A stretch of DNA of 64,000 nucleotides from Sessilibacter corallicola (GTDB lineage: Bacteria > Pseudomonadota > Gammaproteobacteria > Pseudomonadales > Cellvibrionaceae), in NCBI RefSeq assembly GCF_021290925.1, contig NZ_JAJSLX010000002.1:709001-773000 (forward strand), given 5' to 3'. Position numbers and translations under genes: made by a program. Shown here piece by piece: positions 46,901-52,150 of this stretch (the stretch's first letter is position 1; every line of letters starts with the position of its first letter). Under the pieces are notes generated by a model. That model was given only the letters and a program-made list of their open reading frames with translations, was not told where the DNA came from and searched no databases.

Positions 46901-48505
46901 TTATTTTCTGTAGCTGTATAGGTGATAAGCGTCTGTTTTACTCTTCAGAGACACTTCTTGGGTATTCAAATTAATTACCGGAGCCTTGTCGTCATCTAAG
47001 GTTACCCAGTAATTCTGGTTCTTGTTCCATCCCGATTTATTAAATTCCCCTTCCTCGTAAAGCTTTTTCATTTTTTGGTAACTTAATAATTTTCCGTTCG
47101 TACCTTTGTTAAGTGCGTAATCAAATGAGTGACTTTCATCAGTTTGCAAATAACCGTTATCGGTTGGGCAAGTGTAATGTAAGTATTCTGATTTATGAAC
47201 GAAATATACGACTCCTGTTTTAATGTCGAATGCGAGTCGCTTACCAGCATCGGTTTCTTTGTGAACCCAATAATCGCAATAGTCCGGCCATCCATGTGCT
47301 CTGGGGAAGTCACAGTTAATTAAATCGCGCATTTCATCTAAGGTAAGAATATGATGTAACGAATTAGAGTAATTTAAAGCATGGTTATAGTTCCATTGAT
47401 CCTGCGCTGTGGGTTTATGCAGAGATTGAACTTCTGCGTTGGCTTGAGCTTCGGAATTTGCAGCAGCACACCAGTTTTCCATACCAACGCTGTAGCAAAT
47501 ATGATAGACCGCGCCTTCACCATCACGTTTACCGTAGCTGTCGGCAATTTCGATAACCGCAGGGCCATCCATTTCTGCAACACCACCGTTGCAAGTTGTG
47601 CCGTTAACGCCGTCAGGTGTGTCGACACGTAAATTGTCGGGGGTAATAGTCAAGGTTCCAATGTTAATATCCGCTAAAATATCATCGTGTTCTCTAAGTT
47701 GAATGGTCACAGGACCTTGATCGAGTGGAAAACGGAAATAAGATCCGTATAAATCTTCGAAGTACACTTCATCGCCGTCATCCATTTTATAAACAGCAGA
47801 ATCTTTCGGGAAAAAACCACCATCGTGACCACGAGTTTCCACCAAGTGTTTCATATAAACGTCGTCTTTGCCTTCAATAATTCCCGCAATCCAAACAACA
47901 ATTTCTTCCACTTCTTTTAATGCCTTCGAGGCTGCTTTAAAACCATCGGCAATCAACTTTCGGCTTGGGCGCGGGCTTTTACCAATAACGTTAGCTGCCG
48001 CTTTACAGGCTTTTTCTGCAGTTTTTGCAACAGCGTCGGCAACGTTGGTATTCATGCCAGCCGAAGACTTTTCACAGCGAATACCAAGAACTCGTACGGT
48101 AGGGATTGGGTTTTTAATGACTCGGAATTTAACTCCGTATTCGGCTTCGGCATCACCAGAGGTTTGGTGCTTTCTAACTTCGCCACAGTTATTGCTGTCG
48201 AGTTTAGTATCACGGTTGATGTAGAGTGTTACTAACTTATCGTCATCGGTAGAGGAGTCTTGATCCCATACCTGAATTTCAATTTCGTTGGTATAGGTGA
48301 CATTAATCTCTAAATCAATGCTGTCTCTGTCACCAGTATTCATATCCCAAACTTCGTCACTGGCACCTTCGGGATAACGACCCAAATAATTTCCATCAGC
48401 GTAAACTTTGATGTAGGTTTCGTCGTCGCCTTTACCGGGATCATCATGGCTTTCGTGATAGCAAATTAATGTTTCTAAAAGTAAAACGGCACTGTGTTTT
48501 ATCAT
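46901..48505 (-). CDS. Orphan protein with C2-like N-terminus and DUF1566-like C-terminal repeats
   Basis: A 534-residue protein of no firm family. Residues 1-100 read like a C2 beta-sandwich (HDDPGKGDDETYIKVYADGN, then EIEIQVWDQDSSTDDDKLVT), with acidic loops that could bind calcium. Residues about 135-215 are helical and lysine-rich; about 225-330 are beta-rich (DEVYFEDLYGSYFRFPLDQG). The C-terminal 150 residues hold two related units: ALNYSNSLHHILTLDEMRDL followed by a YWV strand, and ALNKGTNGKLLSYQKMKKL followed by another YWV strand. That is reminiscent of DUF1566/Lcl-type modules. There is no signal peptide. AAGGAG precedes ATG. Neighbouring gene is convergent sbcB. Confidence 0.55.
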   Translation of the reverse strand: MIKHSAVLLLETLICYHESHDDPGKGDDETYIKVYADGNYLGRYPEGASDEVWDMNTGDRDSIDLEINVTYTNEIEIQVWDQDSSTDDDKLVTLYINRDTKLDSNNCGEVRKHQTSGDAEAEYGVKFRVIKNPIPTVRVLGIRCEKSSAGMNTNVADAVAKTAEKACKAAANVIGKSPRPSRKLIADGFKAASKALKEVEEIVVWIAGIIEGKDDVYMKHLVETRGHDGGFFPKDSAVYKMDDGDEVYFEDLYGSYFRFPLDQGPVTIQLREHDDILADINIGTLTITPDNLRVDTPDGVNGTTCNGGVAEMDGPAVIEIADSYGKRDGEGAVYHICYSVGMENWCAAANSEAQANAEVQSLHKPTAQDQWNYNHALNYSNSLHHILTLDEMRDLINCDFPRAHGWPDYCDYWVHKETDAGKRLAFDIKTGVVYFVHKSEYLHYTCPTDNGYLQTDESHSFDYALNKGTNGKLLSYQKMKKLYEEGEFNKSGWNKNQNYWVTLDDDKAPVINLNTQEVSLKSKTDAYHLYSYRK

Positions 48506-48981
48506 GAGAACAAACTCCTTGTTGATTTATATATTGCGCTTGAATAATTATTACTTGTGCAAGTGTTGGCGATTTTTACTCTCTCAAAAATGAATAAAAA
48601 CAGCCGTTTTACAAAAGGAGTGAGTTAATTTACATTGCTTGAAAAACAAATAAATTTTTATTGAAAAAAGAAATTTAAGAATAAAATTTTAGTATCAATA
48701 ATGAAATTAAAAATTAAGACGATGGAATTGGGTAGGATTAAGTTAGATGGAATTTAATCAGGTTAGATAGAATTAAGTTGAGAGGAATTAAATCGAGTTA
48801 AGAGAAATTAGTTGTGCGGGATTAACAGCGGTTGTTTGGTAAAGAAAGTTAGAGAGAGGAATCCCTCCAGTTATAACACTGAAAATAAGTGAAGGGAAAA
48901 AGCATTGGATGTTAGGGCTTACTCAAGTCTACTGGATTGACGTTATGCGATTGAATAGCCCTAATAAATGTGGCGATATTA
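48506..48981. other. Intergenic region with degenerate purine-rich repeats
   Basis: About 475 bases upstream of the 534-residue gene. From 48724 to about 48812 it consists of loosely repeated GGAATTAA-GTTAGAT / GAGTTAAGA words. No ORF, tRNA or operator recognised. Confidence 0.5.
48724..48812. repeat. Degenerate short direct repeats (GAATTAAGTTAGA-like)
   Basis: Words such as GGATTAAGTTAGAT, GGAATTTAATCAGGTTAGAT, GAATTAAGTTGAGA and GGAATTAAATCGAGTTAAGA follow one another at irregular 15-20-base spacing, giving a strand-asymmetric purine-rich tract. Confidence 0.6.
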
Positions 48982-49314
48982 TTAATATTGCGTTCGAGAT
49001 TGATAAACGAGAATTCGTTTGTCAAAAAAATTGGTTTTATTGAGCGTGCTTATCGCTTTTTCTGCACTTTCTTTTGAACTCATTTCTACAACACCAAATC
49101 CACGGTGTTTGCCAGTTTCTCTGTCTTTAGCAATACTAACCGAAAGAACTTCACCGTACGTGGTGAATAAACTTCTAAGTTCTTCTTTGGTTGCTAAATT
49201 GGATAGGTTTCCTACGACGACTCTCTCACTTGCTTGGCTGTAACTTACATTAACAAAGCTCAGTAAAACTGTAAAAACAAACAGCTTAAATGGAGCAATT
49301 AAATCTTTCTGCAT
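48982..49314 (-). CDS. RNA-recognition-motif protein with N-terminal signal peptide
   Basis: A 110-residue protein (from ATG 49314, with AAGGA 7 bases upstream; the longer frame needs TTG 49335). Residues 1-27 form a hydrophobic signal-peptide-like segment (LIAPFKLFVFTVLLSFVNVS, then YSQASE as a possible cleavage site). The rest is one RRM: RNP2 VVVGNLSN, a helix (ATKEELRSLFTTYGEVLSV) and RNP1 GKHRGFGVVEM, then helix 2 and the last strand. RRMs in bacteria are usually cytoplasmic cold-shock or RNA-binding proteins; a secreted or membrane-anchored one is unusual. Single gene. Confidence 0.78.
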   Translation of the reverse strand: MQKDLIAPFKLFVFTVLLSFVNVSYSQASERVVVGNLSNLATKEELRSLFTTYGEVLSVSIAKDRETGKHRGFGVVEMSSKESAEKAISTLNKTNFFDKRILVYQSRTQY

Positions 49315-49819
49315 AAATGATTCCTTATAAAGCAAATATAGTTTGTAAAAAGTATGTATTTCTTTTGGTGCTGTTTTTATTGTTGTGGTTACTTACGTTA
49401 AATGTGCCTGAAAACTTTTCTCTAAATCTTGTATTTCTGGTGGCAATGCTTGTTTGCCTCCCGTATAGAAAATCTATCTGTCACTGTTAGTTATATTTAA
49501 TGATGCCAAATCTAAAAGGTTTAACTTATTCAGAATAAAATCATCAATAAATAGGAATTCGTAAAATATTTGTTAACAGTAAATTTGAAGCGAAATTCTA
49601 GTGAGATATATAAAAAAATAAATGTATAAAAATTCAATTTTTCAATTGTTATAAAAATTGGATGAATAGGCGGGTATTGCAGAAGCTCGTTAGAACAAAA
49701 AGTTTCTAAATCTTTTTTTCTATGGTGTATAGTATTAGGAAATTTTTCAATTATACTGGTTAGTTATAATTTAATTAGGATGACGTTCATTGAGTTATAA
49801 ATGCGAATTGGGTAAATCC
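49315..49819. other. AT-rich intergenic region
   Basis: About 500 AT-rich bases between the divergent RRM and NYN genes. Promoters for both must lie here. No repeat, tRNA or ORF recognised. Confidence 0.5.
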
Positions 49820-50296
49820 ATGAAAAAATTGGCGGTATTTGTAGACGTGCAAAACGTCTATTACACGGTAAGACAAACTTATCGGCGCAACTTCGATTAC
49901 AATAAATTTTGGTCTGAAGTTTCAGAATTGGGTGAAGTGGTAACTGCCTACGCTTATGCGATTGATCGAGGAGATCGTAAGCAGGAAGAATTTCAGAATA
50001 TCTTGCGAGCGATTGGCTTTCAGGTAAAGCTAAAACCCTACATTCAGCGTTCGGATGGTTCTGCCAAAGGCGATTGGGATGTCGGTATTACTCTTGATGT
50101 GATGGATGTTGCCGATGACGTCGATATCGTTATTCTTGTATCCGGTGACGGCGACTTTGATTTGTTGGTAAATAAAGTCAGAACCCAAAAAAGTAAGGTG
50201 GTAAAAGTTTACGGTGTTCCGCAATTAACCGCTTCTTCATTGATTAATTCTGCTACTGATTACATTCCAATTAATGAACAATTATTGATGAGCTAA
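49820..50296 (+). CDS. NYN-domain (LabA/DUF88-type) protein
   Basis: A 158-residue PIN-like NYN domain protein: KKLAVFVDVQNVYYTVRQTY with the first Asp and Asn, GDRKQEEFQNILRAIGFQVK in the middle, KGDWDVGITLDVMDVADDVD with two acidic residues, and IVILVSGDGDFDLLVNKVRT carrying the conserved SGDGDF. These are the residues of metal-dependent RNases in this family. ATG 49820 (preceded by GGGTAA) is preferred to TTG 49790. LabA-type proteins are often regulatory; a specific target is not known. Confidence 0.88.
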   Translation: MKKLAVFVDVQNVYYTVRQTYRRNFDYNKFWSEVSELGEVVTAYAYAIDRGDRKQEEFQNILRAIGFQVKLKPYIQRSDGSAKGDWDVGITLDVMDVADDVDIVILVSGDGDFDLLVNKVRTQKSKVVKVYGVPQLTASSLINSATDYIPINEQLLMS

Positions 50297-50352: not shown

Positions 50353-50856
50353 TCAGTTCACACGAGTCATTTTGCTGCGTAGTTCTTCTGGCACATCTTG
50401 CAATAAAACAATGGAAATGCTGCCATCTTTACCGGTGTTTTCTGCGGTTTGATCGCCTAGTGAGGATTCAATTTCACCTGGAGAAAGTGTGTACATTGAA
50501 CCGCTAAATGGGTCTAAAACAAACCAACCAATTAAACCACCGAAAACTAGGTTTCCGGCTAAATACCAACCGTTTGCTTTCGCTTTAACAGGGATTTTGG
50601 TGGTTGCGTAACCGTCTTTTGAGATTTCAATCGTAAAGCTTTTTCCGCCCCAGTAAGAGCCGTCGCTTTTCGGTAAGGTAACGCTGGTTGGAGTGATGCC
50701 TTTAAAGACTTTTTTGCCTGTTTCATCAACAATAACGATGTTTGCTTCGCTCGGTGTGCTCGAAATTGGTAACGTTTGGTTTGGGTTACCTACGATGGAT
50801 GCGCAACCGGTGAACAATAGGGAAGACAGTGCGAATGCACCTAATACCTTTTTCAT
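50353..50856 (-). CDS. Lipoprotein with PEGA-like domain
   Basis: A 167-residue lipoprotein starting at ATG 50856 (AAGGAGA just upstream; the longer frame is rejected). The signal peptide MKKVLGAFALSSLLFTGCAS has a clear lipobox (LFTGC), followed by ASIVGNPNQTLPISSTPSEA. The next 60 residues fit a PEGA-type beta module (ANIVIVDETGKKVFKGITPT, FTIEISKDGYATTKIPVKA). A hydrophobic stretch (YLAGNLVFGGLIGWFVLDPF) follows, characteristic of this small lipoprotein family. It is probably attached to the inner or outer membrane. Function unknown. Confidence 0.82.
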   Translation of the reverse strand: MKKVLGAFALSSLLFTGCASIVGNPNQTLPISSTPSEANIVIVDETGKKVFKGITPTSVTLPKSDGSYWGGKSFTIEISKDGYATTKIPVKAKANGWYLAGNLVFGGLIGWFVLDPFSGSMYTLSPGEIESSLGDQTAENTGKDGSISIVLLQDVPEELRSKMTRVN

Positions 50857-51178
50857 GAAACTCTCCTTAATAAATTTCGGCGCGAGTATATAGTCTTTCA
50901 ATTGTTTCTTAAACAAATTTGCAGAGGATAAAGAAAAAGGATTTTGATTTAATCAATCGTCTAACACTTTAGTTTATTTATATTAATTTTTTGATGAGGT
51001 GTCGTTGAGTTAAAAATAACCCATCATGATTTTGAAGAAATAAGCTGATGGCGTGACGGTGATTAAATCAGAGAGTGTTTGAGACTAAAGTATTAATTGG
51101 TTCTATAGAAATAAAAAATAATAAGAGATATTTTTGGTGTGCAATCAGATAACAAAAAGCAAATATAACGCTATTTTA

Positions 51179-52150
51179 TTAGCTGGGTTGCTGAGCTGTG
51201 TTGGGTGTGCTTTCTTTTGTTTTTGATTCTTGTTTTTGTGATGTTATTTTTTTTGTGTCGACAAAGTCTAACTGGAATTTCTGGGGCGACATGTGAGCTT
51301 CGTAAATTTTAATTTGCCGATTGATCTTCCTGATTTTTTGAATCAATTTCAGTTTGACGTTTGGGTTCATTTCGGCGCCCAAAAAAACTTCTTTAATATC
51401 GTTTTCTTGAAAGCCAATATCGGTGGTGCCGAATTCTTTAGAATCTAAAATGATGTCTGGCGAATTGGCCAGCAAACGAAAACATCTGAGTTCGGCCTCG
51501 GCTGCAAACGGTTTGGGTTTGCTGAGGAATTTTTTTGGAAATTCTTCTGCGTATTTAGGAACCCGGCCGAGCATAATTTCTAAGACTTGTTCGGTGAGCG
51601 TTGTTATCTCCGGGCGATCATCCTGATAGAGTATTTTTTTTGCAACACCCAATGTGGTGTTTTCTCCCGATCGAAACTTAAACGCAACACCCGTGTGAGC
51701 GTCGGCGTAGCGCTGCCACGCAACTAAGTTATCAACGCGTTCGCTAAAGCAGCAAATGCGAGTGCGTAACGCATAGCTTTTCCAATTATTGAGCAACTTA
51801 TCTAAAGCGGGTTTTCTTGCCGTGACGACCTGAGAGAGTAGCTCCGTCAGTACTTCCTCGGCTTCTTCTTGCTCATCGAAGCGTTCTTCTTCTCGCCAGC
51901 GATTGATGGCATGAATGACTTTGCTGTTGCCAGTGGGTTTTTCAAATTGAAAGATCAAGGTCAACGATCGCTTCACCAAAGTCTTGAGCAGTTCTGAGGA
52001 GGAGAAATTGAGTTCTGATTGGTAGGTCAATTCTAACGGGTCTTCAAAATGGTGCGGGGCGCTCCAACGAAGGGTTCGTGTCGAAAGGATTTTGTCAGCC
52101 GTTTGGGCCGAACAAAACTTTATTAAGTAATCAGACGTTTGATCAGCCAC
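51179..52150 (-). CDS. DUF2971 family protein
   Basis: A 323-residue protein with the DUF2971 outline: LIKFCSAQTADKILSTRTLR near the N-terminus, APHHFEDPLEL, RTRICCFSERVDNLVAWQRY near residue 130, and HTGVAFKFRSGENTTLGVAK, then YQDDRPEIT and FLSKPKPFAAEAELRCFR. The family is common but unassigned, and frequently found in accessory regions. The C-terminal 30 residues are Lys/Ser/Thr/Gln-rich and probably disordered. GTG start with AAAGGA upstream. Single gene, divergent from pyrB. Confidence 0.8.
   Translation of the reverse strand: MADQTSDYLIKFCSAQTADKILSTRTLRWSAPHHFEDPLELTYQSELNFSSSELLKTLVKRSLTLIFQFEKPTGNSKVIHAINRWREEERFDEQEEAEEVLTELLSQVVTARKPALDKLLNNWKSYALRTRICCFSERVDNLVAWQRYADAHTGVAFKFRSGENTTLGVAKKILYQDDRPEITTLTEQVLEIMLGRVPKYAEEFPKKFLSKPKPFAAEAELRCFRLLANSPDIILDSKEFGTTDIGFQENDIKEVFLGAEMNPNVKLKLIQKIRKINRQIKIYEAHMSPQKFQLDFVDTKKITSQKQESKTKESTPNTAQQPS

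Follow-up and report, generated by a model that had tools for sequence, protein, structure and literature searches.

RRMs are considered to bind nucleic acids in the cytoplasm or the nucleus, and a bacterial gene that appears to place a hydrophobic leader in front of such a domain therefore raises the question of what the domain would be doing if it left the cytoplasm. The gene considered here lies on the minus strand (complement 48982-49314) of the 64,000-nucleotide stretch of Sessilibacter corallicola DNA that we analysed, referred to below as the window, and its reading frame and RRM_1 match indicate a leader followed by a single RRM in 110 amino acids. A sequence-only reading of this DNA had proposed an RRM protein with a signal peptide, and had pointed to RNA binding outside the cytoplasm, or to membrane-localised RNA, as the consequence. 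Whether the leader is real, whether the domain behind it still looks like an RNA binder, and where the gene might come from are the questions addressed here.

The gene and its start

The open reading frame, its strand and the ATG at 49314 were verified, and the encoded protein is MQKDLIAPFKLFVFTVLLSFVNVSYSQASERVVVGNLSNL...RTQY. A Shine-Dalgarno-like TAAGGA (49322..49327, minus strand) is located 7 nt 5' of this ATG, and the start that had been assigned earlier on the strength of an AAGGA was thus borne out. The frame stays open upstream, where the only alternative ATG, GTG or TTG start covering the RRM is a TTG at 49335, which has no Shine-Dalgarno match. Within the gene, the codon listing gave zero in-frame ATG, GTG or TTG over codons 2-77, and the first in-frame start codon past the initial ATG is the ATG of codon 78, which falls within RNP1; the RRM could not, for this reason, be translated without the leader, barring a non-standard start. 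Initiation downstream, at the RRM itself, which had been named as the finding that would speak against a leader, is hence excluded for ATG, GTG and TTG starts. No sigma-70-like promoter was found upstream of the gene on its strand. On the 3' side, we noted a weak terminator-like hairpin (48850..48869, minus strand), the same scan having returned another one inside the gene, and, just 3' of the gene, a degenerate tandem array (48737-48825 of the window, period 35, 2.6 copies).

The leader as a candidate signal peptide

The hydrophobic leader spans residues 1-28 (MQKDLIAPFKLFVFTVLLSFVNVSYSQA; 49231..49314, minus strand), with a predicted signal peptidase I (SPase I) cut at SQA|SE, and was evaluated by means of a classifier, chance controls and its low pLDDT in the structural model. 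It has the sequence features of a Sec/SPase I substrate, namely an n-region with a net charge of +1, a core of 2.7 KD, and small residues at -3 and -1 of SQA|SE. The leader was correctly described in the sequence-only reading as hydrophobic and ending in SYSQASE, but 28 residues, rather than the 27 given there, precede the predicted cut.

The classifier was a small logistic model trained on 125 proteins (29 exported, 27 membrane and 69 cytosolic) from five E. coli K-12 stretches, with labels taken from product names, a few genes labelled from general knowledge, and weights for positions -3/-1 likewise taken from general knowledge. On leave-one-out, it found 28/29 exported proteins and made false calls for 3/27 membrane and 4/69 cytosolic ones. 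When read from the ATG at 49314, our ORF obtained a p of 0.67 with the cut at SQA|SE; from the TTG at 49335 the score falls to 0.34, and the RRM paralogue in the same genome scored <0.01 in both of its start versions. Signal-peptide prediction, which had been proposed as a check, did therefore return a signal peptide with a cut at SQA|SE, but a moderate one, equalled by about 5% of random leaders. More precisely, when 3000 random leaders each were generated with the base composition of the flanking intergenic DNA or of the leader itself, 139/3000 and 187/3000, respectively (4.6-6.2%), reached the observed score, while 42/3000 and 81/3000 matched the observed core and cleavage-site scores jointly. 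On this chance test, the signal-peptide features encoded here are suggestive, not overwhelming, and because random leaders do reach its score, the leader is best described as a plausible, not compelling, signal peptide.

A further caveat concerns anchors. The classifier gave 0.97, 0.51 and 0.22 to three RRM proteins with two N-terminal membrane segments (L130, L062 and L129, respectively, of the group discussed below), and miscalled the anchored TolA as exported; because two-segment membrane proteins also score high, it separates a cleaved signal from an anchor poorly. The data support an obligatorily translated N-terminal leader with the features of a signal peptide and a plausible site for SPase I, albeit one not well distinguished from an uncut anchor. 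Cleavage is favoured by the AlphaFold2 model, since the predicted beta-1 strand of the RRM begins two residues past the predicted cut at 28|29. Similarly, the positive-inside rule favours a location of the RRM on the outer side of the membrane, whether the leader is cut or uncut, because the charge is net positive before the core and about neutral after it. A search with the 173-nt start region returned no further match in its own genome at E 0.1, and the possibility that the leader was copied from elsewhere in the genome was therefore rejected.

An RRM fold with a probably altered RNA-contact surface

The RRM_1 profile (PF00076) matches residues 32-101 (49012..49221, minus strand) with 77.6 bits against a gathering cut-off of 20.7 (E 6.8e-22), and both AlphaFold and PDB matches agree with this assignment. 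In the AlphaFold2 model, built on a 52-sequence alignment, block-mean pLDDT is 95-97 over residues 31-100, 84 for residues 101-110, and 55-66 in the leader, which falls outside the predicted fold. The predicted strands (residues 30-35, 56-63, 70-78 and 102-105) and helices (43-51 and 81-91) follow the b1-a1-b2-b3-a2-b4 order of the RRM. RRMs were also what Foldseek returned, the first match by E-value being CAPER RRM2 (2jrs, TM-score 0.69), with HuR, PG1 and CyP33 chains reaching a TM-score by target length of 0.87-0.94. The solved HuR RRM1, CyP33 RRM and PG1 RRM (PDB 4fxv, 3lpy and 7jly) resemble our protein in fold but, unlike it, have no leader. The predicted mature part, computed on residues 28-110, is basic (pI 9.4) and has no Cys.

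In typical RRMs, positions RNP2-2, RNP1-3 and RNP1-5 are aromatic and stack on RNA. In the protein studied here RNP2 reads VVVGNL (49204..49221, minus strand), with Val33 at RNP2-2 in place of Tyr, Phe or Leu, and RNP1 reads RGFGVVEM (49081..49104, minus strand), with Phe73 kept at RNP1-3 and Val75 replacing Phe at RNP1-5. Only one of the three canonical aromatics (V33, F73, V75) is thus retained, fewer than a canonical RNA-binding RRM would have. Among 104 other RRM domains collected from our homologue searches, with identical domains removed, RNP1-5 is Phe in 104/104 and RNP2-2 is Tyr (72), Phe (17) or Leu (15), so that Val at either position occurs in 0/104; the description of this domain as an otherwise canonical RRM was therefore not borne out. 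Phe was also found at RNP1-5 in 160/160 further loci, which add little because they were partly gathered with patterns requiring the RNP motifs.

The obvious comparison is with the leaderless single-RRM proteins of bacteria, represented by NF058537 Rbp_regulator, the cyanobacterial Rbp proteins and AB-Elavl of Acinetobacter baumannii (PMC9313427), which are likewise single RRMs of about 80 residues. The predicted fold is shared, but these proteins start at the RRM, typically with M-K or M-N, whereas our ORF has a leader, and its RGFGVVEM and VVVGNL motifs set it apart from them. It also departs from the bacterial RNP1 pattern, (K/R)GF(G/A)FVEM (PMC9313427). The best NCBIfam match (E 3.2e-22) covers residues 32-107, and against NF058537 Rbp_regulator the ORF scores 78.6 bits, below the curated cut-off of 100. 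Taken together, and judging from sequence, the ORF most likely encodes a protein specific to its lineage that has the RRM fold and is probably exported, and whose RNA surface is weakened or altered. Canonical binding has probably been lost; RNA binding may persist in some form, because F73, the basic character of the protein and the fold all remain.

Homologues keep the RRM but not the leader

The genome matches listed are 26-50% identical to the ORF. Thirty of 97 relatives, own genome included, had a match at 1e-5, and we read 30 loci of the 41 matches listed among them. One of these is the query; the 29 remaining loci, and the paralogue in the own genome, all lack a hydrophobic segment ahead of the RRM in the open frame. 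At the level of the class, 120 of 369 genomes matched at 1e-10, and we read 69 of the loci listed, a biased choice made of the 29 best and of 40 picked because their frames were long or their matches extended into the leader. Two N-terminal hydrophobic segments occur in 13 of them and a single one with a long linker in one (L075), while the other 55 show no such segment before a start. Seven of the 398 genomes of the phylum, own included, matched at 1e-14, and added two loci of the two-segment type (L129 and L130). As for the family, 3 of 144 genomes, own included, passed 1e-12, the two non-own ones at 35-39% identity and over the RRM only, and no orthologue was found in these 144 genomes besides the gene itself. 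The other genome of the genus that was searched (G001) yielded no RRM above the cut-off, which leaves the gene in one of two genus genomes, and peptide patterns taken from the full protein identified no close relatives in genome contigs or viral contigs.

Mobile elements were also searched. The ORF was matched by 202 plasmid records, and in 10 of these the match covers 80% of the query or more; in each of the three inspected (H11 and H20, belonging to the 10, and H26) the match starts before an annotated leaderless RRM start, and the plasmid sequence facing the leader is for this reason upstream DNA. A phage origin was rejected, as the 3 phage records that match cover 68-73% of the query, none reaching 80%, and no PHROG match was obtained; two of these three matches start at query residue 13.

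When 265 loci were scanned for single leaders, 49 were flagged. Of these, 45 belong to the two-segment group, and represent internal starts in the membrane region, while the four outside it (L008, L050, L090 and L227) result from upstream reading. The leader plus RRM architecture was therefore seen in no inspected homologue, some of which have two segments in place of the single leader; this is the outcome that had been named beforehand as counting against a signal peptide, and because no homologue keeps the leader, no conservation backs it. The accompanying expectation, that a leader is normally missing from bacterial RRM proteins, is correct for most inspected homologues, but not for the gammaproteobacterial group with two N-terminal hydrophobic segments. 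No report of exported bacterial RRMs was found in the literature searched, which covered few subscription journals.

A tentative reading and its closest rival

The account that we prefer, with some reserve, is that of a lineage-specific, small and basic RRM-fold protein with a Sec-type signal peptide, acting as a repurposed or as a weak or altered binder. According to this account, the N-terminal Sec-type signal peptide would direct the protein through SecYEG and be removed by signal peptidase I behind Ala28, releasing into the periplasm a mature form of about 82 residues that begins two residues before beta-1; without cleavage, the protein would stay attached to the inner membrane and expose the RRM to the periplasm. 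As two of the three stacking aromatics are missing from the RNA platform, the domain would then serve not as a canonical single-stranded RNA reader but as a repurposed fold, in contact with a protein or a polyanion, or as a weakened and altered binder of nucleic acids. To go further and read the signal peptide and the aromatic loss jointly as the mark of an RRM turned into a periplasmic protein that binds a new ligand, that is, as a fold exported and rebuilt, is a more doubtful step. A genuine periplasmic RRM, if true, would show that this fold can be repurposed after export.

Since nothing conserves the leader, two other explanations remain serious, the first of which involves the two-segment group. 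Using a profile built from four such proteins and searched against genome contigs, we obtained at least 583 relatives among at least 595 pattern matches, and the best 80 of these 583 or more came from Colwellia, Pseudoalteromonas, Thalassotalea, Vibrio, Photobacterium, Aeromonas and others. In the same best 80, our start picker gave two segments for 57, three windows for 6, and fewer for 17, where the starts picked were apparently internal ones; applied to 80 viral loci, it found a membrane segment in 0/80. RNP2-2 is Tyr in all 80, RNP1-3 is Phe in 76 and Tyr in 4, and RNP1-5 is Phe in all 80. Like our ORF, these proteins place N-terminal hydrophobic sequence before one C-terminal RRM, but they have two segments and a linker where the ORF has one segment and no linker, and they keep the RNA-contact aromatics that the ORF has lost.

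It is conceivable, if unlikely, that our gene is an offshoot of this group that lost the second segment and the linker, in which case the leader would be an uncut anchor that keeps the RRM attached to one or the other face of the inner membrane. Marine Gammaproteobacteria commonly have membrane-linked RRM proteins, and the poor separation of anchors from signal peptides by our classifier leaves room for this explanation. In a quick tree of 105 RRM domains and 82 columns, moreover, the query falls among 10 two-segment rows with a support of 89, below the starred level of 95, and a tree holding the query with 13 two-segment rows has a log-likelihood 20.09 above that of the freely searched tree (p-AU 0.769). 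Such placement, however, depends on those 82 columns and on a long branch (1.16 for the query vs a median of 0.19). The spacing between RNP1 and helix 2 also argues against it, being 8 in the query vs 7 in 13/16 membrane-segment rows (it is 8 in 44/88 leaderless rows), and with no linker and beta-1 two residues past the leader, the arrangement would be tight for an anchor.

The two-segment proteins (L129, L130 and L146-L225), which are widespread in Gammaproteobacteria and combine two N-terminal hydrophobic segments with an intact C-terminal RRM, deserve attention in their own right. Their RRM would be expected on the cytoplasmic side, and neither a name nor a report for them was found in the literature searched, where few subscription journals were covered. 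For a test of membrane-localised RNA in these bacteria, this group is better suited than our orphan ORF. In the case of L129, the gene is convergent with an ORF, presumably glutamate-racemase-like, and extends into its end.

Genomic neighbourhood and the remaining explanations

In the genus mate (G001), sbcB and a gene for an NYN-domain protein are adjacent, separated by a 767 bp gap, whereas in the window 2974 bp lie between them, a gap occupied by the RRM gene and a 534-aa orphan ORF (46901..48505, minus strand), within a stretch absent from the mate. No RRM remnant was detected in the gap of G001 by tblastn at E 10. The sbcB-NYN neighbourhood is not general, because a match to sbcB is absent from the 12 kb around the NYN gene in three further genomes. 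The orphan has no Pfam, NCBIfam or PHROG family match, was found in 1/58 relatives, its own genome, and is a possible companion of the RRM gene. Based on the two genomes compared, both genes are specific to this lineage, whether they were gained here or lost from the mate.

This setting bears on the second explanation, according to which an acquired RRM lost its start and is now read from an upstream ATG through AT-rich codons that are hydrophobic by chance, making this a decaying or newly fused gene with no selected function. We consider it a little less probable than an uncut anchor. Besides the location of the gene in a stretch missing from the other genus genome, its orphan status, its long branch and the two key substitutions would all fit, as would the frequency with which random AT-rich leaders score equally well. 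The frame, however, is intact and preceded by a good Shine-Dalgarno sequence, the RRM_1 match is strong and the predicted fold confident, and the substitutions are to strand-compatible Val, which does not resemble random damage. Furthermore, among the approximately 169 loci outside the two-segment group (265 - 80 - 16), an in-frame upstream stretch scores >0.5 only in L008, which has its own ATG.

The periplasmic or surface RNA-binding protein proposed by the sequence-only reading is, finally, very improbable, for even though the leader, the RRM fold, the retained Phe at RNP1-3 and the pI are compatible with it, the Val residues at RNP2-2 and RNP1-5 are shared by none of the 104 homologues, no conserved partner or architecture was found, and binding of RNA outside the cytoplasm is accordingly not supported.

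On the other side of the RRM gene, and divergent from it, the NYN-domain gene (49820-50293, plus strand; PF01936, E 1.3e-43), which we take to be LabA-like, is 84% identical in the genus mate. Beside it lies an ORF (50353-50916, minus strand) with a lipoprotein-type signal, LLFTGC, and a 323-aa protein encoded at 51182-52150 on the minus strand matches phrog_1762, of unknown function, at E 1.1e-29.
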